Assembly (NCBI GenBank): GCA_031262585.1
Contig: JAISHK010000008.1
Span: 1 to 64,000, forward strand
Source: Endomicrobium sp.
GTDB lineage: Bacteria; Elusimicrobiota; Endomicrobiia; Endomicrobiales; Endomicrobiaceae
Reading direction: 5' to 3'
Length of the DNA: 64,000 nt
The position numbers and the translations under genes were made by a program. Of the stretch, positions 151 to 47,427 are shown piece after piece (within the stretch, counting starts at the first letter, position 1; each line of letters starts with the position of its first letter). The notes beneath the pieces are model-generated. The model saw nothing but the letters and a program-made list of their open reading frames with translations. It had not been told where the DNA came from and did not search any database.

Positions 151-1197
151 CTAGTAACTTATTAATTTATAGTTTCTGTTGCCCAATCCTAAACTTTCTG
201 CATACTCTAATTGAATCGTAGAGTCTATTTTTGGATAAAGTTCTTTAAAGAGATCTTTTCCAAAAATTTTATTTACTAAATCGTAACTTGCTTGATCAGC
301 TGCTACAGGATCGACACTAGCGACAATTCCTATATCTTCCATAAGAGGATTATTCCTTGACAAAGAAAAACAATCGCAATATTTACTTATATGATTTAAA
401 AAATTTATATACGAGCCTTTTTTATTTTTTAAAACACCTACTGCATACTCTACTATTTTCTCCTGAACTGATAGAGAACTTTCATTCCATTTCAAGCTAA
501 ACACCTCAAACGCACAACTTACCAAACACTGTCCACAGCCTGCACATTTTTTTTCATTCATAACTATTTTTTTATCTACAAGAAATAAAGCTTTCTGATA
601 ACAATGCTTAACACATTCACCACATCCCATACAACAGTGCGGATTTACTGTAGGTTTTGAAGAATGATGCATAGCATATTTACCAGCTTTACTACCGCAA
701 CCCATACCTATATTTTTTAAAGCTCCTCCAAAACCTGTTATTTCATGACCTTTAAAATGACTCATAAATATAAAACTATCGGCACTGTATATTCCTTGGG
801 CTATCATAACCGTTTTAAAGTGTTTTAAATTAACTTTCACCTCACTTTCCACATCCCCTCTTAGTCCATCAGCAATAATTACAGGACATCCACATTTTTC
901 AATCGTAAAGCCATGCTTATTCGCAATAAGATGATGATGATACGCATCAGATCTCCTGCCCACATAAATCGTGCTGGCATCTGTTAAAAAAGGAAAAGCA
1001 GTTTTTTCTTTAGCAATTTTTACAACAGAAGAAACATATTCAGGTTTAATATATCCTTTATTTCCTTCTTCACCAAAATGTATTTTTATTGCCAAGAAAT
1101 TTCTTGCTTTAACATGATTAAAAATTCTAGTAGCTTTCAAAAAATCATACAATTTATCTTTCTTACTCCAAGAAAGAAAATACACTTTTTCTGCCAT
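151..1197 (-). CDS. DUF362 domain protein with two 4Fe-4S ferredoxin motifs
   Basis: A 348-residue protein of the DUF362 family. The N-terminal two thirds carry the DUF362 core, including the stretch FKGHEITGFGGALKNIGMGC. It is followed by two ferredoxin-type cysteine clusters near residues 189-200 (CMGCGECVKHC) and 218-229 (CAGCGQCLVSC), each of the CxxCxxCxxxC form that binds a 4Fe-4S cluster. The precise reaction of this family is not established; an electron-transfer or redox role in the cytoplasm is inferred from the clusters. It lies between an RluA-type pseudouridine synthase (45 bases upstream) and the recX fragment (7 bases downstream), suggesting co-transcription. All eight cluster cysteines are present and the length is usual, so the gene looks intact. 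Confidence 0.85.
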   Translation of the reverse strand: MAEKVYFLSWSKKDKLYDFLKATRIFNHVKARNFLAIKIHFGEEGNKGYIKPEYVSSVVKIAKEKTAFPFLTDASTIYVGRRSDAYHHHLIANKHGFTIEKCGCPVIIADGLRGDVESEVKVNLKHFKTVMIAQGIYSADSFIFMSHFKGHEITGFGGALKNIGMGCGSKAGKYAMHHSSKPTVNPHCCMGCGECVKHCYQKALFLVDKKIVMNEKKCAGCGQCLVSCAFEVFSLKWNESSLSVQEKIVEYAVGVLKNKKGSYINFLNHISKYCDCFSLSRNNPLMEDIGIVASVDPVAADQASYDLVNKIFGKDLFKELYPKIDSTIQLEYAESLGLGNRNYKLISY

Positions 1198-1242: not shown

Positions 1243-1959
1243 TTATTTCCCATATTTACGAAGCTGCTTCAATGTAATTTCAAAATCTTTAGGTAAAGAG
1301 GCCGCAAAACTCTGTTCTTTACCTGTTTCACTCAATATTAAAGTTAAAGAAGCAATATGAAGTGTAAGCCTTTTAATAAGAGGTTTCTCAGTTTCACCAT
1401 TTTTCATCTTATAGTTACGTTTAAAAGATGATAAGAGTATAGGTTCAGATATGCCATACTCATTATCTATTGCAAGAGGATGTCCCAAACTCCACAAATG
1501 TATTCTTACCTGATGTTTTCTTCTTGTAACTGGCCAAACTTGAATTAAAGTATAACTTTTAAAACGCTCTAATACTTTAAAATTAGTTATTGACTCTTTG
1601 CCTCTTATATTAATAGAAACAGTTCCATCAGAAACTAAAATAGGCTTATTTATAGTTCCTTCATCTTTATCCAAAACACCTGACACTAAAGCAATATATT
1701 TTCTACAAATTTGCAAATTTTCAAACTGTATTCTTATATCCCGATACACTTGAAGACTTTTTGCGATAACTAAAACGCCAGTTACATCTTTATCAGTCTT
1801 TTGAACCACCCACAGTTTTTGATTTAACTGTCTTTCCAGTATTCCTACTACAGTTTCTTTCACATTAGTATGCTGATCTGGTATAACAAGTAATCCTGCA
1901 GGTTTATTTATAACTACAATATTTGTATCTTGATATAATATTTTTATTTCTTTGTTCAT
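1243..1959 (-). CDS. RluA-family RNA pseudouridine synthase with an altered HRLD motif
   Basis: A 238-residue RluA-type pseudouridine synthase, expected to isomerise uridine in rRNA or tRNA. The family core is visible: the start motif INKPAGLLV (residues 17-25), the catalytic-aspartate motif at 53-61, and the C-terminal RKHQVRIHLWSLGHPLAIDN that closes the active site. The usual HRLDxxTSG motif reads QKTDKDVTG here. The catalytic Asp (residue 56) is kept, but the preceding His, Arg and Leu are replaced. No S4 domain precedes the catalytic domain. It may have relaxed function or a specialised substrate. It is the first gene of a minus-strand group with the DUF362 gene and recX. RluA, RluC and RluD subtypes cannot be separated from the sequence alone. 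Confidence 0.85.
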   Translation of the reverse strand: MNKEIKILYQDTNIVVINKPAGLLVIPDQHTNVKETVVGILERQLNQKLWVVQKTDKDVTGVLVIAKSLQVYRDIRIQFENLQICRKYIALVSGVLDKDEGTINKPILVSDGTVSINIRGKESITNFKVLERFKSYTLIQVWPVTRRKHQVRIHLWSLGHPLAIDNEYGISEPILLSSFKRNYKMKNGETEKPLIKRLTLHIASLTLILSETGKEQSFAASLPKDFEITLKQLRKYGK

Positions 1960-2287: not shown

Positions 2288-2897
2288 ATGAAATCACTTA
2301 GAAAAACAATAATTTTACTTTCAAGCGGATTAGATCTCATAACAGTTTCATATTATGCATTATCTAAAAGATATATATACAAACACTTAATATTTGATCA
2401 TAATCAGAAACATAAAAAAAATTAAGACAGCTATTAAAATCGCAAAAATAATTAATGTAAGATATTTTATTGTGAAAATAGATTCGACTTGTATCAATGA
2501 TTTAACAAATAAAAAAATACCTATTTACAAAACTATACCAAAAACAGTTTCTCCCATTTAATATTGTACACAAAAAACACTTTATTTTTATCTTATATGC
2601 AGTTTATAATGCACATGTAATTTTTATAAGTATAAAGCTATAAATTTTTCAAATTATCCAGACTATCAACTTGAATTTATAAAAACATATAATAATGTTC
2701 TAAAATTTCTTAAAACAAAAATAATCGTTCGCAACCCACTTTTTAAGTTAAATAAAACACAAATAATAAAATTGGGAATAAATTTAAAAGTTACTTGCAA
2801 AAATGCATGGACATGTTATAATGGTTATAAAAAGTCTTACATGAAATTTACAGATTCATGTAAACTTAGAACAAAAAAATTTAAAGAGGCACATTAA
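2288..2897 (+). pseudogene. queC: Decayed queC (7-cyano-7-deazaguanine synthase)
   Basis: QueC converts 7-carboxy-7-deazaguanine to preQ0 in queuosine synthesis. Translation from the ATG at 2288 gives MKSLRKTIILLSSGLDL, matching the QueC PP-loop start, but the usual SGGxDS ATP motif is changed to SSGLDL. A frameshift lies in the A-run near 2412-2420. After it, a single frame continues to the TAA at 2895-2897 with in-frame stops at 2559 and 2607. That frame still shows the family's C-terminal features: NYPDYQLEFIKTYNNVLKF, IKLGINLKV, and the zinc-ligand end with C, C and K.FKEAH. The remnant ends directly before queE at 2898, the usual queC-queE order. It cannot make a working enzyme. Confidence 0.85.
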
Positions 2898-3668
2898 ATG
2901 ATCACACCATTAATTAGTATTAAAGCACCTATTTATGATATTTTTTTTTCTTTTCAGGGAGAAGCTTTATATACAGGTCTTCCCCAGATATTTATCCGTT
3001 TCGCAGGATGTAATCTAAAATGCAATTATTGTGATACTTTGTATTCAACTATAATATCTAAAAAAGCAAAATATTTAACATGTAATAAAATTGTAAATAA
3101 AGTAATTTCAACATATATAAAAAATAAAGAAAATTTTACTGAAATTTTGACAAACACTTTTACTAAAAATCAAGCTTCTAAAAAACCATCTATTAGCATA
3201 ACTGGAGGCGAACCTTTATTACATGCAGATTATTTAGAAGTATTACTTCCTAAACTAAAGGAAAAAGGATTTAGTATTTACCTTGAAACTAACGGAACTA
3301 TGTTTAACAATTTAACTAAAATTATAAAGTTCTGTGACATAATTTCTATAGATTTTAAATTTAAGTCAGAATGTAAAAATAATTTTTGGAAAGAACATAA
3401 AAAATTTTTAAAAATTGCTTTAAGTAATTCTAAAAGTGAAACTTTCATTAAAAATGTCATAACTAAAAATACAAACATTTCAGAGATAAAAAAATCTGCT
3501 AAACTTATAAAGGGTATTTCAGATAAAATCCCTCTTATTTTACAACCTTCTATTAATAAAAATAGTCCTGCAATACAAAATCTTTATAAATTTTATTCCA
3601 TCGCAAAGAAAATAATTCCAAACGTTCATATTATGATACAAATGCATAAAATTTATAAAGTGAAATAA
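2898..3668 (+). CDS. queE: 7-carboxy-7-deazaguanine synthase (radical SAM)
   Basis: A 256-residue radical SAM enzyme that converts carboxy-tetrahydropterin to 7-carboxy-7-deazaguanine, the step before QueC. The N-terminus has the QueE substrate loop (FFSFQGEALYTGLPQIFIRF) and then the cluster motif CNLKCNYC (CxxxCxxC, near residues 38-45) followed by DT. ITGGEPLL (about residues 100-107) and the C-terminal QMHKIYKVK ending are also family features. The start ATG follows the stop of the queC remnant without a gap. The frame is intact, yet its partner upstream is dead, so the enzyme may be a leftover of a collapsing queuosine pathway or may feed a product that is exported or salvaged. Codon use is extremely AT-rich and it carries several lysine-rich insertions. 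Confidence 0.88.
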   Translation: MITPLISIKAPIYDIFFSFQGEALYTGLPQIFIRFAGCNLKCNYCDTLYSTIISKKAKYLTCNKIVNKVISTYIKNKENFTEILTNTFTKNQASKKPSISITGGEPLLHADYLEVLLPKLKEKGFSIYLETNGTMFNNLTKIIKFCDIISIDFKFKSECKNNFWKEHKKFLKIALSNSKSETFIKNVITKNTNISEIKKSAKLIKGISDKIPLILQPSINKNSPAIQNLYKFYSIAKKIIPNVHIMIQMHKIYKVK

Positions 3669-5018
3669 TATTTATAACTTATTATAAAGTTTTAAACTCA
3701 AATTTCATAACTTTCTTGCATTTTAAATCATACTTTTTATAAATATTTTACCCACCTCAGATTTTTATTCAATAAAATCTGCAGATACTAATCTTTATTG
3801 TTTTGCAAAAAACAAATTTCTAATATTTTAAAATAAATTATGAATGATTATAGGGAAGATTTTATCATTTTTTTTAAATCAAAAGATTATTACTATTTTA
3901 GATAATCTTTCAATAATGATTTATGAACAGTTTCGTATTTTAATTTCTATAATTTATATTTACTCTATCAAAAAATAAAGTAATGACAACGCATAAATCA
4001 TTTTTCTATGTTTACTTACTTGACTTGACGTAATTTATGTATTTTAATTAACAGAAAATTTACATTTATGCTAAATTTTGAAAATTTACTAGAATATCTG
4101 CAACTACCGATGTTGTTTTTTGTAATTGTATATTGACATTTTTTTCAACAGTAACATCTATTAATGATTAATTTTCTATAGCTTTTGTAAAATCTTTTTA
4201 GTTTAATTATGTTCTTCATACCTTATAAAAAATTATACCTTTTTAACTAAAATTTCTTGAAAAAATTTTAGCTTTAAAACATTTTTACAATTTTTATTTG
4301 CATAATTAAAAAGATTTTTCATGTTATATTTTTTTATCATTATTTATTATTTTTGATATATCTTTTATTGTCACCAATATCACTTAACTGAAAGTTCAAC
4401 TTATTAAGTACTTGCGCACATATTTTAAAGGATCCTCAAATTTTGTTGTTCAAAATATAAAAAAACATAACAAAAACATTTTCTAATTTTGTAAGTACAA
4501 CAGTTTTTATGTAATCTATTTTTAGTATTTGCATCTCTTTTATACAGTTTTATTCTTGCAATATAAACAATTAAAATTTTTATACTAAATATTTACTACT
4601 TTATTTACTTTTTTCAAAGTCGTAATTTTAAGATAATCTTTTTCCTCTCTTTTTCTTGTAGATTTCAAAATAGTTTTTTCTAAAATTAAGTTTCTTTGGA
4701 ATATTTTGCAATATGAATTTTAAAATTATTCTATTTTGTCTTTTTTAACATAACATCAATATTATCAAAATTTGCTTTTAAATTATTATCTAACAAATTT
4801 TTTTCCTCTAAAATTTGATGATATATTTATTTTTGAATCTTTTTGATTTTCATAAAATTGCTTTTCTTTTATATCTGGCAATTAAATTTGAAAAGAAATA
4901 TTATTTTGATTATCCTTGTTAGATTTATTATACCATGTTATTAGTTTTTTGAATTTTTGAGTTTGTTAAACTCATTTACGTTTTTCATATTCCGTAATTA
5001 ATAAAGTATTAATTTAGT
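3669..5018. other. 1.35 kb decayed AT-rich region, no intact gene
   Basis: No open frame in this stretch resembles a protein I know. On the minus strand short runs of plausible protein (for example near 4740-4810 and 4080-4180) are interrupted by many stops, which suggests one or more old minus-strand genes now beyond recognition. I see no tRNA, no terminator of convincing strength and no repeats. Confidence 0.6.
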
Positions 5019-6380
5019 TCAAGATATCCACTTTTCTAACATTTTAAGTACAATTTCTACCGAAACAGAAGGATCTTCAATCTGAATTTCTTCTATTTTA
5101 TTTTTGGCATTTTGTATCCATTTTCCAGCTGGTTTATTAAATATTTTCATTAACTTTTCCCCTGAAATTAATTCCGATTTAATATATAGCATATTTTTTG
5201 ATTTTAAATAATCTACTCTATTGCTCAGTTCAATAAGTTTTTTATTATTAGCATCATTTTCTATATAATATGCAAAAAAAAGTTCTTTTATTAAAGTAAA
5301 TTCATTACCACAATTTTTAATAAATCTACGAATTGCTATATCAGTCCAATTTTCAGAATACATTCTAATATATATACTATTTCGTATTATCAACAATACC
5401 TTTTGTATAAATTTTTTTGAATATTTAAGCCTTTTTAAAATAATTTCAATTTTAACAAATCCACTAATAATATTTTCACTAAAATAATTTTTATTGTTAC
5501 ATGCTTCATATTCTACTATACCATAAAGTAAGCCTGCCATTCTCAAAACTATATTATTTTTTACTCTATCTACAACTTTTAAACTGCAAGTAAATTCATT
5601 TAAAGATTCTTTGTTTTTTTTTAATTCTACAACTTCTGGAAGAATTTTTGATAGTAATCTAATATCATCTAACATTATAAACGCTTTTGAAGGATTGGGT
5701 TCAACTAATATTTTATTTATTTCATCCCTTATTCGCTCTTTTGAAACAATTTGTAGTCGTGTTACAGATGTTTTCATTGCAATATATGTAATATGTTCAA
5801 TATCAAAACCAAATTGCAAACATTGGCGTACAGCACGTAAAATTCTCAGAGGATCTTGTTTAAATATTATTTTAGCATTAAAAGGATCTGTTACTCTTAT
5901 TATTTTATTTTTAATATCATTAAGACCGTACGAGGTAAGGTCTAGAATTTTCATATCACTTAATCTCAAAAACAAAGCATTTATAGTAAAGTCACGTCTT
6001 AGTGCATCTTGTTCTAAAGAACCTACCTTTGTATATGGATTTCTTGAATTTAAATCATAATATTCCTTTCTTGGCATTATAAATTCTACTTCTACATTAT
6101 CCATAAACAGTTTAGCCGTGCCAAATTTTTCAAATACAACTGGCTTAGTGAGGTTATATTTACTCGCTAGAATTTTGGAAAAGTTTATGCCTGCTAATTG
6201 CAAATCTTTATTATCAGCTTTTGAGCAAATCATAATATCTAAATCTTTAGATTCTCTCTCAATAAATAAGTCTCTTACAAATCCACCCACAACATAAGCA
6301 TCAAAGCTGTTTTCTTTTGCTGTAATAGAAATTTTACCAATAATTGAAATATATTTTTGTGGTATAACCATATTTCTCAT
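5019..6380 (-). CDS. cca: CCA-adding enzyme / poly(A) polymerase family tRNA nucleotidyltransferase
   Basis: A 453-residue class II tRNA nucleotidyltransferase that adds CCA to tRNA 3' ends. The head domain has VVGGFVRD (residues 30-37), the metal-binding DLD (46-48), the RRDFTINAL motif (about 125-133) and the DPLRILRAVRQCLQFGF arginine motif. The six tRNAs in this window lack an encoded CCA, so this activity is needed. In many relatives an HD phosphohydrolase domain follows. Here the matching stretch reads LRMAGLLYGI, without the His-Asp pair, so that function appears lost. A good -10 box lies only 9 bases before the first ATG; a second ATG three codons in (MVIPQK) may be the true start. 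Confidence 0.88.
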   Translation of the reverse strand: MRNMVIPQKYISIIGKISITAKENSFDAYVVGGFVRDLFIERESKDLDIMICSKADNKDLQLAGINFSKILASKYNLTKPVVFEKFGTAKLFMDNVEVEFIMPRKEYYDLNSRNPYTKVGSLEQDALRRDFTINALFLRLSDMKILDLTSYGLNDIKNKIIRVTDPFNAKIIFKQDPLRILRAVRQCLQFGFDIEHITYIAMKTSVTRLQIVSKERIRDEINKILVEPNPSKAFIMLDDIRLLSKILPEVVELKKNKESLNEFTCSLKVVDRVKNNIVLRMAGLLYGIVEYEACNNKNYFSENIISGFVKIEIILKRLKYSKKFIQKVLLIIRNSIYIRMYSENWTDIAIRRFIKNCGNEFTLIKELFFAYYIENDANNKKLIELSNRVDYLKSKNMLYIKSELISGEKLMKIFNKPAGKWIQNAKNKIEEIQIEDPSVSVEIVLKMLEKWIS

Positions 6381-6389
6381 ATCTGTTTT

Positions 6390-6417
6390 ATTATAATATA
6401 AAAAAAACGTAAAACAA
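6390..6417 (-). promoter_or_regulatory. Candidate sigma-70 promoter of cca
   Basis: Reading the minus strand, TTGTTT (6412-6417) and TATAAT (6390-6395) are separated by 16 bases. The -10 box ends 9 bases before the first ATG of cca, so the transcript would start almost at the first codon (leaderless, or with a very short leader to the second ATG). AT-richness makes chance matches common. Confidence 0.45.
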
Positions 6418-8604
6418 TTTGTATTATATAATCGTTTTAATTTCTTTTTCTTTGCTCTTATATGAAATTATAACTCCATATCATCCTTATAATTATTTTT
6501 GTTACGCGATATTTAACTAAATTTAATATAAATTTCAGAAGTTTTTTATTTTATGTATACTCAAATTCAATTGCATCATCAAAAAAAATTTATTTTGACT
6601 TCAGCAAACAAAGATAACTTTTTGCCAATAAATTTATAAATAAAGTTTTCATTATTATGTCATAACTGAATTTTAAAATTTAATATCATCTAAATTAAGT
6701 TTACTAACTCGTATTCAATTAAATACAATTAATTTTTACATTTTTTGTCAAACTTAAGACTAAGTTTTTGCTTTGTCATACTCACTTTATATCCACATAA
6801 AAATCAATTCATTTTCTTCAAACTTAAGTAAACATCTTTCTTTTTTAAATGTTTCAACAAAAGCATTTTTTATTATATCACAACAATCTACTCTCTAAAA
6901 ACATATCTTCTGTTTTAATTCTCATATAAACACCTTTTTTATAATTTCCATTAATGGCATATTTAATCTCTTTTTGAGAAATCCATTTTAATTTTTAAAT
7001 TTTATTATATACATTTACTGCGTAGTCAAATTCGCTAAAATTTATATACTCTTTATCAAGATTTTTAAAAACTTTAATTTATATTTTTTAGTTTTAGACG
7101 CATTAATTTTTACATAAGCTTTATTTATTTTTTCTTTTCATTCAAAAACAATAAAACAATATCATTGCCAGTTTTTAAGTAGAAATACCAAACATAAGCA
7201 TCAAAACGATAATTATAAAAGATCTACTCATTAGGATACTTCTCCAGCGTTTTATTAGTTATAATCCTCTTAATATTTTTTAAAGAATTTTGTGCGACAA
7301 AAAAATTATTTATTGTGTCACAAGATTTTCAAAATCAGTTATAGACAATGAATTTATATCTGAATGTATGTATTTACACAATATCTGTCATTTCTAAATT
7401 ATAATGATCTAAAAACCTGATCTAAATATTTATAGTCTGTACTAAAATAAAAATATATTATCAACATTATTTTAGTTGCATCCTAGCAACTGAAATTACA
7501 ACAAAATAATATTAACTTTAAAAATTTTAGCAACATTCGCTGAAATATTTTTAGAAAGTTTCTATTAACCCAATAGCGTTGTTTATACTCAACAGTTTCA
7601 AAATACTCGACACTTCTTTTTGCACTTGTCCCTTTACTACAAAACAACATTTCTATCCTAAGAAAAATCCTTTTGCAGTATTTAAAAATCAGTAACAATT
7701 ACACACTAACAATTTGGTAATTCATTAAAACAAATTTGCTAAATGTTATATTATCATTTGTAAAACTTTTAAGTTTTTAACAAAAAAAGTTTTTAACTTA
7801 AAAATAATTAATAAGAGATAAGAGTTAAAATTTAAAACATTTTTAAAAGAAACACTTTTTGCAAGTTTAGTAGTTAATAAACAATTCGACACATTAAAAA
7901 ATTCCATTTTTTGAATCTCCTCTTGTGACTACAAAAACAAATCAACAAGAATATGTTTCTGCTCTATTACATATAAAACGCCTCGTGAGAAATTTCTCTA
8001 ATAAACTTTCGTAGATCAACACCAATATCTTTTAGTCTTTTTTCTTTGTTTATTATTTAACTCTACATCAAACACTAAAGTAAAAGAGTTATAAACTAAA
8101 AAACAATAAACAAATGAAAAATAACGCAAAAATTTCTTAATAAGAATCAATATTAACCATAATTGCAAATTCCAAATTAAAATATTTTTTATTTAAATTA
8201 CGAATTATTTCATTTTCATTATACTGATTTTTCAAAATAATTATAAAAGATTGAGCATTAATTCATCAATAATTGCATCTTCTTGTATCATTTTATTCCA
8301 TAAATGAATTGCCGAACAAGGAACGATCATTTATCTAAGGTAAATTTTTAATTCTTGATTTTAAAATTCATAAAATTCCACAATCGTATTAAGACCGATA
8401 CTATTTAATAAATTCAGATTTTTTATTCAAAAACAATTTTTCGTTTTAAAGCTTCTAATTCTAAATTTGAAATATGTATTTTCTCTTACTTAATTTTACT
8501 TATTATTAAATTATAGTAATTTAACAATTCTTTATACATTAAATACCAACTTAATTTTGTTTATCGCCTTATTTAAATAATATTCTGTTCATTCTTTATT
8601 TCAT
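6418..8604. other. 2.2 kb decayed AT-rich region between argH and cca
   Basis: No intact gene is recognised. Minus-strand translation shows short protein-like patches with many stops and frame changes, for example around 7130-7290 and 8160-8330. A 71-codon minus-strand open frame at 7483-7698 has no recognisable motif and no ribosome-binding site. The region is best read as the residue of one or more dead genes, originally on the minus strand. Confidence 0.55.
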
Positions 8605-9957
8605 TCATTTTAATTTTCGTTTGATATTTTTTATTTGACGCATAACAGCTTTTTTAGACGTTGCTCCATAAGAAGTTTTCGTATTAACAATATTTTTTAT
8701 ATCTAAATATTCAAATATATCTTTTTTAAATATAGGCGAAAATTTATTATATTCTTCCATAGAAAGTTCATTTAACATCTTAGATTTTTTTTTACAATAT
8801 AAAACGATATCTTTAATAAGTTTATGTGCTACTCTAAAAGGAATATCATTGTTTGCGAGATAATCTGCTAATTCAGTAGCTGCAATAAAACCCTTTTTAG
8901 TACTTCTTAAAGTTTTTTCTTTTAAAAATTTTAAACTATCTATCATTTCACTTATAACTTCAATACATAATTTTATATTATCTAAAGCATCAAAGACTGG
9001 AGGCTTATCTTCCTGTAAATCTCTATTATATGCAAGAGGAAGAGATTTTAAAATAGTAAGCATTGCAATTAAATCACCAAAAATTCTGCCTGATTTCCCT
9101 CTTATTACTTCAGCACAATCAGGATTGCGTTTTTGAGGCATCATTGATGAACCAGATGTGAATTTATCATCTATAGTTACATAATCAAACTCAGGATTCA
9201 TCCACAAAATTATTTCTTCACAAAGTCTGGTAAGGTGTAACGCTATTAAAGATACACAAAATACAAATTCTACTGCAAAATCTCTATCACTTACAGCGTC
9301 TAAAGAATTTTCACTTATATTTTTAAAATTTAAAATCTTTGCTACATATGACCTATCAACCTTAAAAGAAGTTCCAGACAAAGCGGCACTACCCAGTGGC
9401 AAAATATCAGTCCTTTTATAACAGTCATCAAGTCTCTCTTTATCTCTTTGCATCATCCAAGCGTAAGCAAGTAGATGATGTGCTGCTAAAATAGGTTGAG
9501 CAGGTTGCAAATGTGTAAATCCAGGCATTATAACATCAATATTTTTAGACGCTTTTTCAACAATTATTTTTTGAAAAGTAGTCAAAAGATTTTTTATTTT
9601 ATTAATTTCTTGCTTCAAATAAATTCTTAAATCAGTAGCAACTTGATCATTTCTACTTCTAGCTGTATGCATTTTACAACCAACAATTCCTATTCTACGT
9701 ATAAGTTCTTTCTCTATAGCATAATGTATATCTTCCTCTTCTGGAATTTTCCATTCCTTACTTAAATCTTTTAAAATTGACATTAAGCCAAAAATAATCT
9801 TTTTCCCGTCACTAGCACCTATAATACCGGTCTTTACAAGCATCTTAGTATGAGCTATAGAACCTGTAATATCTGATTCTATAAGTCTACCATCAAAAGA
9901 AAATGATCCAATAAACTTTTTTAAATTTTGCATTATATCCTCTAATATTTTTAGCAT
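8605..9957 (-). CDS. argH: Argininosuccinate lyase
   Basis: A 450-residue fumarase/aspartase-superfamily enzyme that splits argininosuccinate into arginine and fumarate, the last step of arginine synthesis. Visible motifs are SIAHTKML (near 33-40), HTARSRNDQVATDLR (about 98-112), TGFTHLQPAQP-type loop (PGFTHLQPAQP), and the family signature GSSMMPQKRNPD. The usual N-terminal WGGRF motif is not recognisable: the first 20 residues read MLKILEDIMQNLKKFIGSFS. The body is otherwise full length, so it is likely functional, with the true start uncertain (M1 or M9). It is the last gene of the lysS-lolC-lolD-ilvE-tamB-argH run, 69 bases after tamB. Confidence 0.93.
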   Translation of the reverse strand: MLKILEDIMQNLKKFIGSFSFDGRLIESDITGSIAHTKMLVKTGIIGASDGKKIIFGLMSILKDLSKEWKIPEEEDIHYAIEKELIRRIGIVGCKMHTARSRNDQVATDLRIYLKQEINKIKNLLTTFQKIIVEKASKNIDVIMPGFTHLQPAQPILAAHHLLAYAWMMQRDKERLDDCYKRTDILPLGSAALSGTSFKVDRSYVAKILNFKNISENSLDAVSDRDFAVEFVFCVSLIALHLTRLCEEIILWMNPEFDYVTIDDKFTSGSSMMPQKRNPDCAEVIRGKSGRIFGDLIAMLTILKSLPLAYNRDLQEDKPPVFDALDNIKLCIEVISEMIDSLKFLKEKTLRSTKKGFIAATELADYLANNDIPFRVAHKLIKDIVLYCKKKSKMLNELSMEEYNKFSPIFKKDIFEYLDIKNIVNTKTSYGATSKKAVMRQIKNIKRKLK

Positions 9958-19052: not shown

Positions 19053-19195
19053 TTTTTTTCTCCATTTTACTATACTTTTAATATATCAAAACTCAATTAT
19101 CAAATACTTACAATTATACATGCAGGAAATCCACACATATAACTTAATTATTATGTAGATATGACTCGGATTGTACCATTTTTTGCTATGACAGT

Positions 19196-19240
19196 CAAAA
19201 AACTTAAATCATTTTTTATTAAAAAATCAATAAGTTTTTG
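19196..19240. other. Nested AT-rich hairpin upstream of lysS
   Basis: An outer inverted repeat (C-A-rich CTTA at 19196-19206 against TAAGTTTTTG at 19231-19240) encloses a second one (ATTTTTT/AAAAAAT). It lies about 145 bases upstream of the lysS start codon. It could be a leader structure on the minus strand or a bidirectional terminator remnant. In such AT-rich DNA chance pairing is possible. Confidence 0.3.
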
Positions 19241-21253
19241 CAAATAGATAATTTTTTACAACTATTTATATCAGAAGAAATTTTAAGGATTGAAATAGAA
19301 TTTTGCACAGACAACATACCACTCTAAATGTTTTAATGCTTTTAATGCTTTTATAATTTTAAAATATTATTTTCTTTAGCAAGATAAATATATCTAACTT
19401 AAAAAACACAAAAAAGTATGTACAGCTGCTTTACAATTATTAAAAAGGTTCATATTGTATTTTTTCTTAAACATAAAACCAAAAAACTTTTTTAAAAACG
19501 ATCCAATTTTAATCATTTTGATAAGTAATTTCATTTTTTCTATTTTTTATTCTTTTCGCTAAAATACTTAATATTTTTTGTTACAATTAATTATGAAGAA
19601 AAATATCATGTTTTTATTTTTTTACTATTTTTCATATATAGATTTTTTTATAGTTTACTTTCAAAAAATAAATTGGGAAATTTATGAACTCTAATTATAG
19701 AAAAGTTTGTATCTAAAATAAAAATTTTAACTTTATTTTTTAATAAAACTTTTTAAATTTTAGAGGATATAAATCTACTCACAATCATTGAAAATACTAT
19801 AAAAATAGAAATATCATCTTCTGCTTTATTCCTGACAAAAATACAAAGATTTCTTATACATAACGACACGAGCAAATGAAACATCAAAAAAATTTGACAT
19901 ATAGAATAATGATGCAACAAATTAAAAACAAAATCTTTACAAAAACTACTTAATAATAAAATCACGTTGTTTCAAAAACATTTAATTAATAACTGCACTC
20001 TATTTTATATAATTTCTATAAAAAAGACTCAAAAAATGTAAAAGTATGAAAAATAAAATATTTTACAATCGAATCTAAACTTTTTTATTATAATAATTCT
20101 TTGTTTTCTTTTTCTCCAAAAACTAATCTATACTAACGCCTTTCAATAGAACAAAGAAAGTATTAAAGAATGCTTCTTTAAAGGTCGAAATTGCATTTTT
20201 TTTGATATAGAAAAAGAATAAATCAATAAAAACTCTCGAAGGAAACAATAAAAACTTTAGTAAAATAATTGAATATTTAAAATAAGGATATATTAAAGCT
20301 ATTTTACATATTTATTTCATATTTTCAAATTCTTCTTTCAAAAAATAACATTTTATATATCCAACCATAATCCTGACCTAAATAAAATTCATTTTCTTCA
20401 CTATAACGAGCATATTTAACTTTAATTACTTTAGAAAAAGTATCAATTCTTACAATAAATGTATGCATATATATTCAAAACGCATATGATTTTTTTAAAA
20501 CGCGTGTGGATGGGACGGCAAAAACGACTCAAAAAGATTAGCTATCCTCTAAATCAAAAATAAAAAAATGTTGCTTATATACACAAATATTTTCTAGATC
20601 AATAATAAACTTTCAGGACAATATGCTATTTCAAATTTAATCCATACTCATCACTCTTAATGAATAAAACTGAGTTATTCTTATATTTAGGACTATAAAT
20701 AATATAAATACACTTAATTCCTGTTGAAAATTTACATGTAAAATTATAATTTAAAATTTCAATAATAGAAATATTATTTTAGAACTTACTATCCTATACA
20801 TATATTTAAAATCTATCACTAAAAATAATTTTCTAAGATACCTTAACATTTCTAATGAATTTATTCAAAAGTTTAGAAACAATTCAAATATCAGTGTAAA
20901 CTACACATCATATGACACAATGGTAAAATCTTTTTATTAAATTTGGCATTAACTTTTATATAAGAAAAAAAACTAAATTTTAAATCTAAAAAACTCTTTT
21001 CAAACTTTACAAAAGTTTGAAATATACAAAAAACTTGAAACTGAAACGAAAAGTTAGATATTTTAACTTTTAAATTTCAAAAATTAATTTATTTTTCTAT
21101 CATCACTAAGATTAGAAAATTGTATATATCATTCTTATTTTCCACTCAAAATTTACAAGTTTCATAAAATTGAATCACTTTACCAGCAACATTTACCATT
21201 CTAGCAAAATTTAAAAAATGCAGTCTCATTAGAAATTACCGTAAACACATCAC

Positions 21254-21289
21254 CAATAAAAAAAAGGCATTTTATTGATGATCTTTTTT
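21254..21289 (+). terminator. Rho-independent terminator-like hairpin in decayed DNA
   Basis: An 8-bp perfect stem (CAATAAAA at 21254-21261 and TTTTATTG at 21270-21277) is followed after six bases by seven Ts. No intact plus-strand gene precedes it, so it would be a leftover from a dead gene. The stem is AT-only apart from its base, so it is weak. Confidence 0.3.
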
Positions 21290-21480
21290 TAGATGTATTA
21301 TAAAAAGTGCTGTATTATAACATAAAAGTAAAACAACTTGATCTTGATCTTGTAAGATTAAAAAACTTACTTAAGTTTAGTTTTATCATTTAATAGATTA
21401 AAATCAATATTCTTAAATCATCCAACGTTGGATTTTAGCATTAAACCTAAAATACATCAAAGACACGACTCACTTAAGAC

Positions 21481-21819
21481 TCATCCGAAATCTTGCAACT
21501 GATTTTTTAAATTAAATATAAAAAACATATGTGGATTTTTAACAATCTCTGTTAAGCTTGTATCAATATCAGACAAATCATCACTCAAGTTTGCAAATAT
21601 ATTATTACTATTGACAAAATCTCGTTTATATTCGTATTGTTCTGGTTCTTGCGTGCTGATATTTATCAATAACCATACTAAATTTACCATTATAATACTT
21701 TCAATAACTAATTTTATAGTAATTTCTCTATTAGTTTTTAACTCATTTTTCATATCGCTTCTTTGTATTACTTTGTAGTATTTGTTTATAAATTTTCTGG
21801 TTTTCATTATAATTTTCAT
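21481..21819 (-). CDS. Hypothetical protein with one membrane segment, possibly a gene fragment
   Basis: A 112-codon open frame in the decayed zone. It encodes a basic N-terminus, one hydrophobic segment (about residues 34-50, LVIESIIMVNLVWLLIN) and an acidic C-terminal tail with LSDDLSDIDTSLTEIVKN. I do not recognise a family. No ribosome-binding site precedes the first ATG; an internal ATG at residue 23 (MKNELKTN) is an alternative start. Its mixed composition is more protein-like than that of neighbouring random frames, but it may be part of a larger dead gene. Confidence 0.3.
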   Translation of the reverse strand: MKIIMKTRKFINKYYKVIQRSDMKNELKTNREITIKLVIESIIMVNLVWLLINISTQEPEQYEYKRDFVNSNNIFANLSDDLSDIDTSLTEIVKNPHMFFIFNLKNQLQDFG

Positions 21820-22699
21820 TGACCAAAACTATTTAGTATCAATAAACAAAGAATTTTGAAGTTTGTCTTTTAACAAGCATTTGAAAATATATTATAATTT
21901 TTAGAATGAACTATACAAAATTAACAAATAAAAAATATTTTATTATACGATCTCAAAGACATATTTTTATAAAATTAATAACAATATGTTCGAATACAAC
22001 TTAAATATAGTTGAAAATATCAATAAAATCAAATGGATAAAAATTTTCATGAAAACTTTATGAGTTTTTTCAATATAAAATATCTTACACTACTCAACAA
22101 AATTGTTAAACGTTTTAAAATATCTACTATTGATGCTCTAGAATCAAGATCCACATCTAAAGTTCTCATAAAAAATTAAACTTAGTCTATTTTTATTTTA
22201 TAAGATATTCCTATTAAAGCTTTTATTATACCCTAACGAAATTTCAGATAAAATTTCTTTAACCACATTCGAAAAGATCTGTGTGATATTTTTACAGTTT
22301 TATCCCAAATAGTTAAAATCAAGCTCTGCTGCAAGAATAATTGAAATCAAATCGATATTATTAAAGAGCTGTTTTATTATATTAATATTCATAAGTGACA
22401 AAAAAAATAAATCCGCTTAATTTTATTGCATTAATTTTCAAGTTCTTGTATACTTTATCCATATTTTCAACATAAAGTAAAATTCTTTATATTTTATGTA
22501 AACTAAAATTCTCCAATACTGGCTGCACGATTTATTACAATAATTAGTGAAAAATAATTTTTATTTCTTTTCTCAACATATTTTGAATTTTCACAGCAAT
22601 CCTAACTTGTACAATATTTAAAAGCATCTAATATGCCATCGCAAAATAAATAAAATAAAGTTATACAAAATAATTATAGTTATTAAAAACCATCAAAAA

Positions 22700-22798
22700 T
22701 CAATCTCTGTTATTTTTCTTAGCATAAATAAACCAGCAAAGAACTCCAACGACTACAATAAAAAATACTACTAATGTAACAAACAAAAGTTTTACCAT
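22700..22798 (-). CDS. Possible 32-residue single-span membrane peptide or fragment
   Basis: A short frame (ATG at 22798, TGA at 22700) encodes a very hydrophobic helix (LLFVTLVVFFIVVVGVLCWF) followed by a basic tail. The sequence just upstream also reads as hydrophobic in the same region, so this could be the last helix of a decayed membrane protein rather than a real small gene. No ribosome-binding site is visible. Confidence 0.25.
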   Translation of the reverse strand: MVKLLFVTLVVFFIVVVGVLCWFIYAKKNNRD

Positions 22799-25092
22799 AT
22801 CAAGTTCAATTGTATAAGTTATAAATATAGTAAAAAGCATTAAAATTTACAACACAATCTAACATAAGTTCAAATTCCTTACTCTTAGTTTTTGAGAAGC
22901 ATTCATAAAAACCTTATCAAGCTCTAGGCAAAGATAATTTATTAATATAATTAACTTCAAATTTTAAAAAGTCATTTAGTTCATCTATAGCTATTAACAG
23001 AGTATTTGAAGAATTTATCCAGCCTATATTATTTTTTACAGTAATCAATACTTCTATAATATGTTTATCAAATAAGTGTCCATATTTATTATTAAATTTA
23101 TCTCCCATATACTAATCAAAACAAATATATAAAATGCATAAAATTAATAAAAAATATCATTTCCTTCACTAAAAGATTTCCTTATCCTGTATATTAATCC
23201 ATATTTTCAAAAACGCATTTTATAAATTCAACGATAATCCTTAATTATTATCATTTTCAAAAGATTTTTGAATAAATTAAAAATAGGTTGAATTTCATAT
23301 ATTTTGTCATATTCTGTTTTATTTAATACAGAAATATATAATATTTTTCAGTTCATTAGAATTAAAATGAACATAAATTACCGCCGCACAACAAATATAC
23401 AACTGAAGCGAATAAATTTAATACTATTGCTAAAAAATCTTCAATTTTACTTAAATCATAATAATTTAATTTTATTATATCTATATTCAAATTAACATTT
23501 GTAAACAATCTTAAACATTTTAATATTTCATAATCTGTTATTGGTTACTATATCATATATATCCTTAATCAAATTTTTCATTATGTAACTGATTCTATTA
23601 ATGAAACTCTTATCATCAATTCTTTAACTCAAATATAAATGTATACCTTTTTGAAAAGACTGCGTCTTTTTCATCTAAATAAGGTTTTCAAGAAACAAAC
23701 TTAACTACAATATCTTAATATTGTAATTTTAAAACTAACTATTTTTGTCATTAATCAATTTTAAATCTTTAACTTTTAAATCTTTTCCCCAACTGCAAGA
23801 CTCATAAACACATTCCTTATACACATAATAATTATACATTTAACGCAAATTGTACATTTTACACTTACTTCAAAACAAGATTTTCTATTAAGTCTTCCAT
23901 CTATTCCTGAAAAAATCGTTTTAATTCAAAACTAAACAATGAATAATCAAAAAAACGTCTAATATTATCATTTCTCTAATAACGTTTTCATTTTAATAGT
24001 TAAAATACTTAAATCACAATACAAAATTAGTCTGTCCAGTCTTAAAGTCACTACATAAACAATATTTTTTTAGATTGAGAAATTTAATATCGGTTTTAAT
24101 ATATAAAAATTTTAACCATATACTGAACTATAAAATTATATTTGTTACCATTTATCGTGTATATTGAATGTGTTATATATGTAAAGTATCATTAATTGCT
24201 CCGCTAAACTAAAAACATCGTTTTAAAATCAAATGTAACACTTTGCGAATAAGCATGACATTTTTATCATCATTAGGAATTGAAAATATATCATTGTTTA
24301 AATCTCTTGCCTCTAAAATAAAATTTACTCTACCATATTACCATATATAATATTAAAATCCCAAATCATAAAATGTATTAATTTCAGTTGTAATATCAAC
24401 AGTACTGTTTTATCCTTTATCATTAAAAAATTAAAAAATAAGCTCAATCCATAAATTCACAGTTAACAGCAACAACAAAATCTTTGGCAAACTATTAACA
24501 AAGATAATCACTCCTGTATTGTAATTAATGTTATAATTTTATCCTGCTACTAAAATTTAAAATCCCCATACATAAGAAAATCTTTTAACAAAATTTATAC
24601 TATTAATGCAAATAATATTATTTGATGTTATTGAAAATTATATTTAAATTAAGTTTTTTATAATCTATATACACTTTAACTGTTTTATTTTTTATTGACT
24701 TATTTTTATTGCTCTTAAAAGAGAATAATATTATAATTTAATATATAAAATTTATCTGCCATAGTTTTTTTCAAGTTGAATACTTATATTAAAACACTTT
24801 ATTTAATAAGCTTCAAAAATTACTTCCTGTATAAATTCTCTATCTTGTTCCTTATATAAATAAAGAAACATATTTTTTCTCAACTATATCGTTGTAATCA
24901 ATACTTATAATTAATCTATTTCATACTCCCTAAACTTTCATTTGAAATTCACAATTCATTTTAGAAGACGATACATTTTTACATTTATCATATTCTTCTT
25001 TATTACTATAGATACTTGAATTACACCTAAATTCTACTAATCTTAGTCCTAAAAAAATTAAAATTTAAAAGGAAGTTTTAACATAATAAGAA

Positions 25093-25163
25093 AAATTGAA
25101 ACTATGTTGAACTACTTTTTACTACATCAACAGAATCAATAGTTTCAATTTGTGTCTTTTTTT
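25093..25163 (+). terminator. Long perfect hairpin with trailing T-run
   Basis: A 13-bp perfect inverted repeat (AAATTGAAACTAT at 25093-25105, ATAGTTTCAATTT at 25139-25151) encloses a second 5-bp repeat (GTTGA/TCAAC), and seven Ts follow at 25157-25163. Such an extended pairing is unusual for the surrounding decayed DNA. It may be a terminator of a dead plus-strand gene, or a structured RNA or mobile-element end. Confidence 0.4.
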
Positions 25164-25600
25164 ATAAGGCTTAAAAATTGTTATTATTACCATCACGTTT
25201 TCCATCTAAATAATCTAATAACTCCAAAACTGCAATTTCTCACAAATCATGAAAAAAGTTTTTTTGATTTAGCACATATAATCTCGTGAAATATAATATC
25301 ATTAATATCACAAAACAAATTACAATCGTTAAACTGCTTTAAACCCTTTCTTTAACATTGACTAATATAGAATATTATTGCATGACATTCACACTTAAAA
25401 TCTATAACAGAAATAAACAATGAAAATTTTGAAACATTTTATCATGCATACAATTTTATATTATAAGCGCCTATAATAATTAGTATTAATATTTTCAACT
25501 TCTATATAAATTTTGATACAATTAAATATATATTTATAAAATTGTTATTGCTATACAATTTTACACAATTTATCTTTATAACAAATATTTTGATTAATTA

Positions 25601-28518: not shown

Positions 28519-28786
28519 AAAGACTATTGCTATTTTAGTTCCAATATTTGTAGTTCTTATTGCAAGTTTATTCGCATCAAATTATCCAGATATCTTAGAA
28601 ATTTTAACCATAAATTACAATTTTGATAATAAAGCAAAAATTACACCTTTACTATTTACAAACTACTCTTTTCCATTTATCAATAATCAACATTTATCAA
28701 CATTTTGCTCTGGTATAACAGGTTTATTCATTTTGGATTTTTTACATAAAGTGATGAACAAAACAATTAAATTCTTTACAAATTGA
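28511..28786 (+). CDS. PDGLE-domain protein, CbiN/NikN-like partner of CbiM
   Basis: A 91-residue membrane protein with two helices (about residues 6-22 and near the C-terminus). The motif after the first helix reads ASNYPDILEI, matching the PDGLE domain that accompanies CbiM/NikM in metal uptake, although the defining Gly is replaced by Ile. YSFPFINNQHLSTFCSGITGL also fits the domain. The ATG at 28511 lies within the end of cbiM (8-base overlap) behind a GGAG. It is expected to work with CbiM as the small second subunit. Confidence 0.78.
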   Translation: MNKKTIAILVPIFVVLIASLFASNYPDILEILTINYNFDNKAKITPLLFTNYSFPFINNQHLSTFCSGITGLFILDFLHKVMNKTIKFFTN

Positions 28787-29562
28787 CTAACATGGATAAA
28801 GTAACAAGTAAAAAGCAAATTTTTGAATTATTGAAATCTGTAAGAAATAGAAAGATTTCACCTAAAAATGCTTTATCACGTTTACAAACATTTCCCTTCG
28901 AAGACTTTGGCTACGCTAATCTTGATTATCATAGAGAAATTCGTCAAGGAGTAGGGGAAATAATTTATGGACAAAATAAAACTCCATGTCAAATCAAAAA
29001 TATAATTTCCAATATGTTAAATAATGGATTAAAAAATATATTAATAACAAGAATATCGCAAAAAACAGCTGATTTTTTAAAAAAGCAAAAAATAGACTTA
29101 GAATATTATTCTATTGCTAATCTTGCTATAGTAAAACGTAATAAAAAAATAAAGCATACTGGTTTTATCATAGTTGCAGCAGCTGGAACAAGCGATATCA
29201 AGATATCTGAGGAAGCAGCAATTACTGCTGAAATATTAGGAAACAATGTTAAACGATTATACGATGTAGGTGTTGCTGGACTACACCGACTCCTAGCACA
29301 TTATGATATTATTATCAAAGCAAGAGTTATCGTAGCAGTTGCTGGGATGGAAGGGGCATTAGCATCTGTTATTGGAGGACTTGTTAGTTGCCCTGTTATA
29401 GCAGTACCTACAAGTATCGGATACGGCTCGAATTTTAATGGACTTTCAGCACTTCTAGCTATGCTTAATTCTTGTGCAAATGGAATTTCAGTTGTTAATA
29501 TTGATAATGGTTTCGGGGCTGGATTTATTGCTAGTCGTATAAATAAAATAGGACGCTCATAA
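28783..29562 (+). CDS. larB: Nickel-pincer cofactor biosynthesis protein LarB
   Basis: LarB carboxylates and hydrolyses nicotinic acid adenine dinucleotide, the first step in making the nickel-pincer nucleotide cofactor. Its C-terminal half resembles the AIR carboxylase PurE. The 259-residue frame shows the N-terminal LDYHREIRQGVGEIIYGQNKT, then AAGTSDIKISEEAAITAE, LYDVGVAGLHRLL, and the very conserved PVIAVPTSIGYGSNFNG and LAMLNSCANGISVVNIDNGF. The cysteine of NSC, an active-site residue of LarB, is kept. The start is TTG at 28783 (overlapping the previous stop) or ATG at 28792; I favour the ATG. The stop overlaps the larC start (TAATG). Confidence 0.93.
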   Translation: MTNMDKVTSKKQIFELLKSVRNRKISPKNALSRLQTFPFEDFGYANLDYHREIRQGVGEIIYGQNKTPCQIKNIISNMLNNGLKNILITRISQKTADFLKKQKIDLEYYSIANLAIVKRNKKIKHTGFIIVAAAGTSDIKISEEAAITAEILGNNVKRLYDVGVAGLHRLLAHYDIIIKARVIVAVAGMEGALASVIGGLVSCPVIAVPTSIGYGSNFNGLSALLAMLNSCANGISVVNIDNGFGAGFIASRINKIGRS

Positions 29563-30800
29563 TGAAAACTCTTTATATAGATTGCTCTATGGGAGCCGCT
29601 GGTGATATGATAATGGCAGCATTGTTTGAACTAATAGAAAATAAACAAGATTTTTTAAAACAAATAAATTCCTTAAACTTACCTAAATTTAAAGTACTTG
29701 CAAAATCTTGTACAAAACAAGGCGTTACAGGCACACGTATTATTGTAAATATTAATAATATAAAAGAAATATCAAAAGATGTAAATATCTCACGCAAACT
29801 CAAAAAAAATAATAATATACAAAAACAAACACATTTATTAAAACACTATCATACAAATTTCAATAAAATTGAAGATACTATCTCCAGTCTAAATCTCTCG
29901 AAAAAAATTAAAAATCACACTTTAAATATTTATAATATAATAGCACAAGCTGAATCTAAGGTACATGCAAAACCTATAAATAAAATTCATTTTCATGAAC
30001 TAGGAAATATTGATGCCATAATAGACATTATAGGCATATGTATGTTAATGGAAATTATAAAACCTCAAAAAATTATAGCATCACCAATAAATATGGGAAG
30101 CGGATTTGTAAAATGCAGTCATGGAATATTACCTGTACCAGTTCCCGCAACAACATCTATATTAACCAATATTCCCATTTACGCAAGTAATATTTCTGGT
30201 GAGCTATGTACACCAACTGGAGCAGCTGTTATAAAATATTTTGCAAAAGATTTTTTACAGATGCCTAATATTTGCATTCAAAAAATAGGTTATGGACTTG
30301 GTTCAAAAGATTTTAAAATTGCTAATTACCTTAGAATATTCCTAGGCAAAACCAAAACAACATACAATAGCAGTGAATACGTAGCACAATTACAATGTAA
30401 TTTAGATGACATGACAGGCGAAGCATTAGGATTTACCATAGACTTATTAATGTGCAATGGTGCTTTAGATGTTTTCATAATACCCGTTCAAATGAAAAAA
30501 AGTCGTCCAGGGTTTTTACTAACTTGTATATGCGAAAAAGATAAATCCGATTTTTTTGCACAATTAATATTTAATCATACAACTACATTTGGTATACGTA
30601 AAAGCATTTGTAATAGATATACTCTAAATCGCAAATTTTTTACATTAAAAACACCTTATGGTAAAATACGTTCAAAAATAGGTAAAGGCTATAATACAAA
30701 AAAACTTAAATTAGAATATAATGACATTGCAAAAATAGCTTTTTTAAATAATATGTCTTTTAATGAAGTCAGCGAAATTTTAAAAACGAGAAAAAAATGA
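29562..30800 (+). CDS. larC: Nickel-inserting pincer cofactor enzyme LarC, single full-length frame
   Basis: LarC is a CTP-dependent cyclometallase that inserts nickel into the pincer nucleotide. The 412-residue frame has the N-terminal LYIDCSMGAAGDMIMAAL, HFHELGNIDAIIDIIGI (about 143-159), the glycine-rich NMGSGFVKCSHGILPVPVPAT, and the C-terminal domain with LQCNLDDMTGEALGFTIDLL. In Lactobacillus the two domains are joined by programmed frameshifting between larC1 and larC2. Here they form one continuous frame, as in many other bacteria. The start overlaps the larB stop and the end overlaps larE by 4 bases (ATGA), so translation is coupled. Confidence 0.93.
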   Translation: MKTLYIDCSMGAAGDMIMAALFELIENKQDFLKQINSLNLPKFKVLAKSCTKQGVTGTRIIVNINNIKEISKDVNISRKLKKNNNIQKQTHLLKHYHTNFNKIEDTISSLNLSKKIKNHTLNIYNIIAQAESKVHAKPINKIHFHELGNIDAIIDIIGICMLMEIIKPQKIIASPINMGSGFVKCSHGILPVPVPATTSILTNIPIYASNISGELCTPTGAAVIKYFAKDFLQMPNICIQKIGYGLGSKDFKIANYLRIFLGKTKTTYNSSEYVAQLQCNLDDMTGEALGFTIDLLMCNGALDVFIIPVQMKKSRPGFLLTCICEKDKSDFFAQLIFNHTTTFGIRKSICNRYTLNRKFFTLKTPYGKIRSKIGKGYNTKKLKLEYNDIAKIAFLNNMSFNEVSEILKTRKK

Positions 30801-31624
30801 AATTATATCGAAAATATGAAACTTTAAAACAATATATTTTAACTTTAGACAAACTTATTATCGCATTTTCAGGAGGAGTAGATTCAACTTTTTTACTAAA
30901 AATAGCACATAACATACTAGGAAATAATATTATTGCTGTAACGGCAAAATCGTGTTCCTTTCCGCAACGTGAATTAAATGAAGCAATATTATTTTGTAAA
31001 AAAGAAAATATACGTCATATTATTTGCAAATCTAAAGGAATATACATCAGAAATTTTTTAAACAATCCTACAAACCGTTGTTATTTATGTAAAAAAGAAT
31101 TATTTTCAAAAATTTGGAGCATAGCTAAAGAAACTAATATAAAAAATATAGCTGAAGCCTCCAATTTTGACGACAACAACGATTATAGACCTGGATTAAA
31201 AGCTATATCAGAAGAAAATATAAAAAGTCCTCTAATGTATGCAAAACTTACTAAAAATGAAATAAGACAACTCTCAAAAGAATTACATTTACAAACTTGG
31301 AATAAACAATCTTTCGCATGCTTATTTTCACGTTTTCCATACAAAGAAAAAATTACATTAAAACACATATATATGATAGAAAAAGCAGAACAAATACTTA
31401 TAGATATGGGTTTCAAACAGATTAGAGTACGCTATCATAAAAATCTTGCAAGAATAGAAACTGATGAATTAGGTTTCAATATCCTTTTAAAGCATAATAA
31501 CAGAAAATTTATATATCAACAGTTTAAAAAAATAGGGTTTCTTTACGTCGCAATAGATATAATAGGATATAGAACAGGAAGTATGGACGAATCACTCAAT
31601 TTAATATCTGATATAGATAATTAA
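30797..31624 (+). CDS. larE: Sulfur transferase LarE for the nickel-pincer cofactor
   Basis: LarE is a PP-loop ATPase that activates the pyridinium dicarboxylate mononucleotide and adds sulfur to it. The 275-residue frame has the PP-loop SGGVDST (25-31), the RCYLCKKELF motif (C95 and C98) and FACLFSRFPY (C175), the last aligned by motif with the sacrificial cysteine of Lactobacillus LarE. Having all three cysteines could fit LarE forms that carry an iron-sulfur cluster and act catalytically, but that is inference. It ends the operon; a short weak inverted repeat follows without a clear T-run. Confidence 0.92.
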   Translation: MKLYRKYETLKQYILTLDKLIIAFSGGVDSTFLLKIAHNILGNNIIAVTAKSCSFPQRELNEAILFCKKENIRHIICKSKGIYIRNFLNNPTNRCYLCKKELFSKIWSIAKETNIKNIAEASNFDDNNDYRPGLKAISEENIKSPLMYAKLTKNEIRQLSKELHLQTWNKQSFACLFSRFPYKEKITLKHIYMIEKAEQILIDMGFKQIRVRYHKNLARIETDELGFNILLKHNNRKFIYQQFKKIGFLYVAIDIIGYRTGSMDESLNLISDIDN

Positions 31625-37300: not shown

Positions 37301-37606
37301 ATTATTTGTAATATACCTACTAAATTTTTAACTTTTCTTTTTTGAATTCTGTGCTAATTATATTGCTATACCTCATACCCATTAGAATATACTTCAATTT
37401 TTTTAAAAATTCACCTTAAAATTTTGTCTAAATGATCTTACTGATAATTTAAAAACACACACTCTTCTCTGTGTTCTTCTAAAACAGATACAATTTTATC
37501 TAGATTTTTTAATAATTGCTGAACTTTTACTATCCGAGTCTATATAGGGAGTTTCAAGTTTTTAATAAAATTTATCGCTCTTTATAAATGATCCTTAGAA
37601 ACCAAG
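34309..37606. other. 3.3 kb decayed region
   Basis: No intact gene is recognised. The plus strand between about 35400 and 36850 shows frequent short protein-like patches (for example near 36400-36480 and 36660-36740) broken by stops, suggesting one or more long dead plus-strand genes. I could not name them. No IS-like terminal repeats are seen. Confidence 0.55.
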
Positions 37607-37680
37607 CGCGCCCAAGAGGAGTTGAACCTCTAGCCTTTTGATTCGTAGTCAAATGCTCTATCCAATTAAGCTATGGGCGC
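37607..37680 (-). tRNA. tRNA-Arg (anticodon ACG)
   Basis: A 74-base cloverleaf with acceptor stem GCGCCCA/TGGGCGC, T-arm with GGTTCAACTCC, and anticodon loop CTACGAA (ACG, whose first A is normally deaminated to inosine to read CGN codons). No CCA is encoded. It lies 25 bases from tRNA-Glu, and the two are probably co-transcribed. Confidence 0.95.
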
Positions 37681-37705
37681 ACATAAATTAATCTAACTTA
37701 TAAAG

Positions 37706-37779
37706 CGCTGCCAACGGGATTTGAACCCGTGATCTTCGCCTTGAGAAAGCGACATCCTAAACCGCTAGACGATGGCAGC
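37706..37779 (-). tRNA. tRNA-Glu (anticodon CUC)
   Basis: A 74-base cloverleaf with acceptor stem GCTGCCA/TGGCAGC, D-arm with TAGCGGTTTAGGA and anticodon loop TTCTCAA (CUC). No CCA is encoded. It reads GAG; the UUC isoacceptor needed for GAA, the likely major Glu codon here, must be elsewhere. Confidence 0.93.
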
Positions 37780-47376: not shown

Positions 47377-47427
47377 CGTAATTATATGATTTTGCTACAA
47401 TGCTCAGTTAGCATTTGCTTTTATGAA

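Follow-up and report, generated by a model that had tools for sequence, protein, structure and literature searches.

Gene content at the left end of the contig

The window analysed here is a stretch of 64,000 nucleotides, bases 1–64000 of contig C10 in bin G000. The bin comprises 936,649 bases in 11 contigs and is estimated to be 83.5% complete and 1.15% contaminated. The source organism is probably an Endomicrobia-like symbiont, a bacterium living inside termite-gut protists. G+C content is mostly 25–30% in the stretches of G000 that were measured, with one contig end at 33.5%. An excerpt of PMC11257099 gives Endomicrobiellum genomes as about 1.13 Mb with 32.3% G+C. Among the named records listed, the nearest by QueE is Endomicrobium sp. 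Hs463_bin78, at 48% identity. Among the papers searched, none mentions both Endomicrobium and queuosine, and only one, on phages, came up for QueE without QueC.

The features of the left end of C10 are listed in Table 1. The names argH, murI, amiC, purH, tamB, larB/larE, and folE are our assumption from reading the sequences, without a family search.

Table 1. Features at the left end of contig C10, with positions in the window and comparison to contig C9.
Feature	Position	Strand	Remarks
Left end of contig C10	1-11222	.	collinear with C9:203113-217881 (right end of C9)
DUF362 ferredoxin-type protein	151-1197	-	intact in both copies; dN/dS 0.176
RNA pseudouridylate synthase (RluD-like)	1243-1959	-	intact in both copies; dN/dS 0.177
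Dead queC	2288-2897	+	several frameshifts, two TAA, PP-loop SSGLDLIT
Intact queE	2898-3668	+	256 aa; Cx3Cx2C and TGGEP kept; purifying selection
Remnants of an 803-aa TPR protein (intact on C9)	3685-4926	-	
tRNA nucleotidyltransferase (cca type)	5019-6380	-	intact in both copies; dN/dS 0.187
Remnants of an AsmA-like gene, a 342-aa TPR gene, a patatin gene, and an outer-membrane efflux gene (all intact on C9)	6474-8620	-	
Argininosuccinate lyase (presumed name)	8605-9957	-	intact in both copies; dN/dS 0.163

The dead queC remains recognizable by homology. It matches the Pfam QueC model (PF06508) at positions 2409–2891 with an E value of 4.8e-19 and a score of 67.6 bits against a cut-off of 22, and both stop codons lie inside the match. 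Its frame is not open and its PP-loop is damaged, the corresponding motif of the intact queC on contig C9 being SGGLDSTT. Aligned to that C9 gene, the window copy differs by six deletions and two insertions, and several of these shift the frame. The deletions are 2 nucleotides after position 2418, 9 at 2503, 12 at 2586, and a single nucleotide at each of 2607, 2632, and 2894. The insertions are 2 nucleotides at 2560 and 3 at 2849. The initial annotation described this queC as broken by one frameshift, two in-frame stops, and a changed PP-loop; the gene is indeed broken, by more frameshifts than were then counted. Differences between the two copies are flat over the three codon positions (0.219, 0.184, and 0.199). 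Sequencing error was rejected as the source of the broken frame, given this evenness over codon positions and substitutions as dense as the indels suggest.

The queE immediately downstream had been read as open with all of its cluster cysteines, and it is. It is 86% identical to the queE on C9. Residues C38, C42, and C45, together with T102–P106, are invariant in a 12-row alignment and also belong to the strictly invariant columns used below. The best three of 11 solved-structure matches are the QueE entries 6nhl, 4njg, and 5tgs. Against the NCBIfam QueE models listed, both queE copies fall far under every curated cut-off (best score 80.7, cut-off 300). The C9 copy lies beside an intact queC and misses the cut-offs as well, so these models cover the lineage poorly. 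By synteny, motifs, and the best solved-structure matches, the ORF is putatively assigned to QueE. In both copies, about 12 extra residues lie between the cysteine motif and TGGEP, an extension that is absent from the other ten aligned QueE sequences of the genus.

Collinear contig ends and composition of the bin

A QueC family search of the bin identified an intact queC at C9:205542-206150, which is full-length and stop-free (E value 4.9e-71). It is followed by a second queE, and the rluD-like gene upstream likewise occurs twice in the bin. The blastn pieces shared by the two contigs are 70–88% identical and reach right up to both contig ends, the start of C10 and the end of C9. On C9, 0.94 of the collinear stretch is covered by open frames of 80 codons or more, versus 0.57 on C10. 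Between queE and argH (window positions 3669–8604), five genes that are intact on C9 survive on C10 only as remnants.

Contig ends across the bin were compared using about 15–20 kb at the ends of the seven larger contigs, with the four small contigs taken in full (C3 reads as N) and blastn pieces shorter than 150 nucleotides left out. Four pairs of ends overlap at 70–90% identity: C2 left with C9 left, C2 right with C4 left, C9 right with C10 left, and C10 right with C7 right. Three of the overlaps are flush at both contig ends. In the C2/C4 overlap, the match starts at base 2 of C4 but tails off some 1.8 kb short of the C2 end. Over the four junctions, dS is 0.32–0.49 in 16 of 18 gene pairs, counted after leaving out pairs with less than 55% identity, fewer than 90 residues, or dN/dS above 0.6. 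The two outlying pairs are an antisense frame inside queE (dS 0.24) and the gene at the very end of C10 (dS 1.86). In trees, the two queE copies are sisters, as are the two cca copies, each with 100/100 support. The sister branch lengths are 0.084 and 0.070 for queE and 0.10 and 0.11 for cca.

The contig ends thus overlap at strain-to-species divergence and at one common age. That the four overlaps share one age agrees with two sister populations and not with four separate duplications placed at contig ends. Most likely, bin G000 combines contigs of two sister populations into a mosaic, with the C9 queC belonging to the population other than that of the window; the contig-end gene pair at dS 1.86 is out of line with the other pairs. 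The earlier suggestion of a second queC elsewhere therefore holds in part: an intact copy is present in the bin, but it occupies the orthologous place on an overlapping contig and most likely stems from the sister population. If only two populations are involved, neighbours in the series C4-C2-C9-C10-C7 would alternate between them, leaving C2 and C10, about 310 kb, as the share of the window population.

Two other readings of the duplicated ends were weighed. The presence of both copies in a bin with so little estimated contamination would suit a real duplication within one genome, the window copy being a decaying duplicate while the C9 queC serves the cell. It would take four contig-end duplications of similar age, as well as equal constraint on both copies of queE, rluD, cca, argH, and DUF362 despite their redundancy, which makes this reading very improbable. 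Alternatively, C10 itself could be chimeric, with sequence from a queC-dead population fused to that of a queE-intact population at a point between or close to these genes, or could contain a similar assembly fault. The mosaic bin and the occurrence of contigs from other populations in bins of the genus lend this some plausibility. As queE and the genes on either side of queC lie at similar synonymous distances from C9 (0.32–0.48), and the queE branch lengths are balanced, we consider a chimera distinctly unlikely.

Single Trichonympha cells contain homogeneous Endomicrobia populations that are distinct between host lineages, according to the excerpted text of PMC4356469. A gut sample with several hosts would yield mixtures of such populations. 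Bin G017 also looks mixed, as it contains two cca genes. Bin G018 likewise looks mixed: contig C52 (locus L085) carries pieces of dead queC and queE genes that closely resemble those of G014:C14, and an intact pair lies on G018:C20.

Selection and timing of the queC loss

Pairwise dN/dS between the window and C9 is 0.180 for queE, in the range of its neighbours rluD (0.177), DUF362 (0.176), cca (0.187), and argH (0.163). For queC, the same comparison yields 0.642 (bootstrap 0.43–1.00). Normally queC is no less constrained than queE: in five more distant pairs of relatives, which serve as a control, dN/dS is 0.107–0.143 for queC versus 0.139–0.260 for queE. For two very close relative pairs, queC and queE are both at 0.29–0.41.

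Changes were also counted at strictly invariant columns, with 11 relatives as outgroups. There are 96 such columns in QueC and 73 in QueE. One QueC column and five QueE columns are changed in both copies and were set aside, which leaves 95 and 68, and the 22 of 218 queC codons touched by indels were dropped before counting. On the window branch, 32 of 95 QueC columns and 0 of 68 QueE columns are changed (Fisher, p = 2.4e-9). On the C9 branch, the corresponding counts are 2 of 95 and 0 of 68. When the shared changes are counted as window changes, the window figures become 33 of 96 versus 5 of 73 (p = 1.3e-5). Parsimony assigns 3 or 4 derived QueE residues to the window and 7 or 6 to C9, depending on the outgroup set, with 22 unassigned to either branch. 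Both copies have the five shared QueE changes and the extension between the cysteine motif and TGGEP, so these are not a mark of the queC loss.

A simple neutral model was applied with a window branch of 0.16–0.25 changes per site. The 95% intervals for the drift time of queC span 0.47 to 1.53 of the window branch. For queE, the upper bound on drift is 0.08–0.12 of that branch. Given the mosaic, these substitution patterns show that queC died early after the split and was outlived by a queE under selection.

The initial annotation had offered very recent loss of queC, with queE as yet unaffected, as one explanation. The fully open queE agrees with this. The flat codon-position differences, the dN/dS of 0.64 for queC against 0.18 for queE, the 32 changed conserved residues, and a drift of roughly half to all of the window branch for queC compared with at most 0.08–0.12 for queE all tell against it, and we judge it extremely improbable.

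Remaining pathway genes in the genus

The genus is represented by 24 bins (G000–G023), of which the same 12 carry full-length queC and queE. Each of these 12 has one full-length queC only. Full-length tgt is present in 14 of the 24 bins, queA in 14, and queD in 19, and queF is present in 11, namely the 12 queC- and queE-bearing bins minus G000. Many bins are incomplete, so the absence of a pathway gene is weak evidence. Bin G020 has about 0.2 Mb in 4 contigs at an estimated 66% completeness, very small for the genus if the estimate holds.

The proposed search for the other pathway genes succeeded in G000 for queC (on C9), tgt (on C4), and queD (on C10); queF was found neither by the Pfam model nor by a QueF query from the genus. 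A hidden queF at C4:24383 was considered and rejected: the Pfam match is weak and the frame is presumably FolE. Both tgt and queA are found only on C4, a contig that may belong to the other population. A single TGT-family match was found in G000, and no DpdA-like second TGT. Presence and absence calls based on G000 as a whole blend the two populations: queC, tgt, and queA all occur in the bin, yet the window population may lack all three.

The queD gene is located at C10:152035-152382, and a copy cut by the contig end is present on C7. The two overlap over 102 residues with a dN/dS of 0.18. The motif CExxHGH is present in 20 of 20 QueD loci scanned, some of which are the same gene fetched twice. 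FolB had no match in 40 genomes, and 10 of 14 control genomes were positive. With CExxHGH present and FolB not found, this queD has the features of PTPS-I/III hybrid enzymes as characterized in excerpts of PMC5041015, where CExxHGH enzymes are able to serve both folate and queuosine; dual activity here is putative. The retention of queD is likely due to a folate role.

Salvage through QPTR/YhhQ was rejected, as PF02592 had no match in the 40 genomes searched, 9 of 14 control genomes being positive. Bin G013 contains tgt, queA, and queD without queC, queE, or queF. This gene set suggests salvage of a late precursor, though no QPTR transporter was found. Bin G014 contains queD plus remnants of queC, queE, tgt, and queF.

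The locus shares with the canonical queD-queC-queE (preQ0) operon the same genes, the adjacency of queC and queE, the cysteine and TGGEP motifs of queE, and the ordinary intact pair on C9. It differs in that the window queC is dead and queD lies elsewhere. Queuosine genes also decay in intracellular Buchnera and Rickettsiales, where excerpts of PMC3890641 and PMC5615194 describe lost pathway genes, shrinking genomes, and tgt that is sometimes kept. Buchnera strains differ by a whole five-gene cluster in these excerpts, whereas here the gene of the earlier step outlives that of the later step.

Retention of queE without an adjacent queC

Our best explanation, held tentatively and at a little short of an even chance, combines the mosaic bin with an early loss of queC, continued retention of queE, and a QueC step supplied in trans. 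In population A, represented by C9, the queC-queE pair is intact. Population B, represented by the window contig, would have lost queC early after the split along with several neighbouring genes. Given the mosaic, the substitution patterns show that ordinary purifying selection has maintained queE in B. As the conserved QueE columns, including the cysteines and TGGEP, are all kept, B would probably still produce 7-carboxy-7-deazaguanine. The simplest reason for this to be worthwhile would be a QueC step performed in trans, most likely through a queC that has been relocated, duplicated, or acquired and lies in B's genome outside the bin. If QueC activity were gone from B, queE should drift, as it has in G014.

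Several observations weigh against supply in trans. No second queC of the window population was seen in the bin, and G000 holds only part of its genome. With one queC in every queC-bearing bin, the presence of two would be unusual. QueF, present in the other 11 bins that carry queC and queE, was not found in G000, so de novo synthesis may break further on. Under the two-population reading, tgt and queA would both be the other population's. Should a second queC be found, the case would become one of ordinary relocation during genome decay.

If the window population truly lacks QueC, a selected QueE would imply an unknown use of its product. The initial annotation had raised such a different use, in which 7-carboxy-7-deazaguanine would be used, exported, or converted by another enzyme. 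It is rather unlikely that this explains the locus, and correspondingly unlikely that the QueE product serves a QueC-free purpose in the symbiont lineage, as an end product or exchanged metabolite and not only as a queuosine intermediate. The constraint on queE while queC drifted agrees with it. So does G017:C14 (locus L083), where an intact queE at positions 4042–4776 is preceded by two ATPase-like frames and by no remnant of queC; it may be a second such case, in a bin that also looks mixed, having two cca copies. Against it, we know of no enzyme other than QueC that uses 7-carboxy-7-deazaguanine, and the bin yielded a single TGT-family match. In G014 both queC and queE are dead, so the genus has no general requirement for QueE where QueC is missing. 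A precedent is Mycobacterium phage Bipper, which in the excerpted text of PMC6884629 lacks only queC among QueE-type pathway genes and for which modification with the QueC substrate is put forward as a possibility. Bipper has DpdA, unlike G000, in which a DpdA-like second TGT was not found.

QueE could instead moonlight, its chemistry no longer being needed. E. coli QueE regulates cell division independently of catalysis (PMC11142719, in excerpt), which is a precedent for a QueE of value apart from queuosine, and the extension of about 12 residues, missing from the other ten aligned QueE sequences, might be read in the same light. The C9 copy, whose neighbouring queC is intact, has the extension as well. 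In E. coli the second role is independent of catalysis, whereas the catalytic motifs of the window QueE are conserved; the 68 kept columns include the cysteines and TGGEP, whose conservation a non-catalytic role would not require. According to the same excerpt, QueE of B. subtilis and P. aeruginosa lacks the division role. Moonlighting is accordingly given a low probability. Because the conserved columns, including the cysteines and TGGEP, are kept, selection on QueE chemistry seems likelier than a purely structural second role.

Other regions of the window

An AIRC-domain protein, a nickel-insertion protein, and a PP-loop protein lie in a row at positions 28783–31624, which we take to resemble a LarB-LarC-LarE cluster. 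The last of these regions (30797–31624) gave a weak QueC profile match of 24.5 bits but, on account of its gene neighbours, is not taken as a QueC surrogate. Pieces at 34183–35313 are 78–85% identical to contig C6. Three long stretches, at 19053–25600, 34309–41019, and 47377–50270, each contain at most one open frame of at least 100 codons and probably represent further decayed genes.
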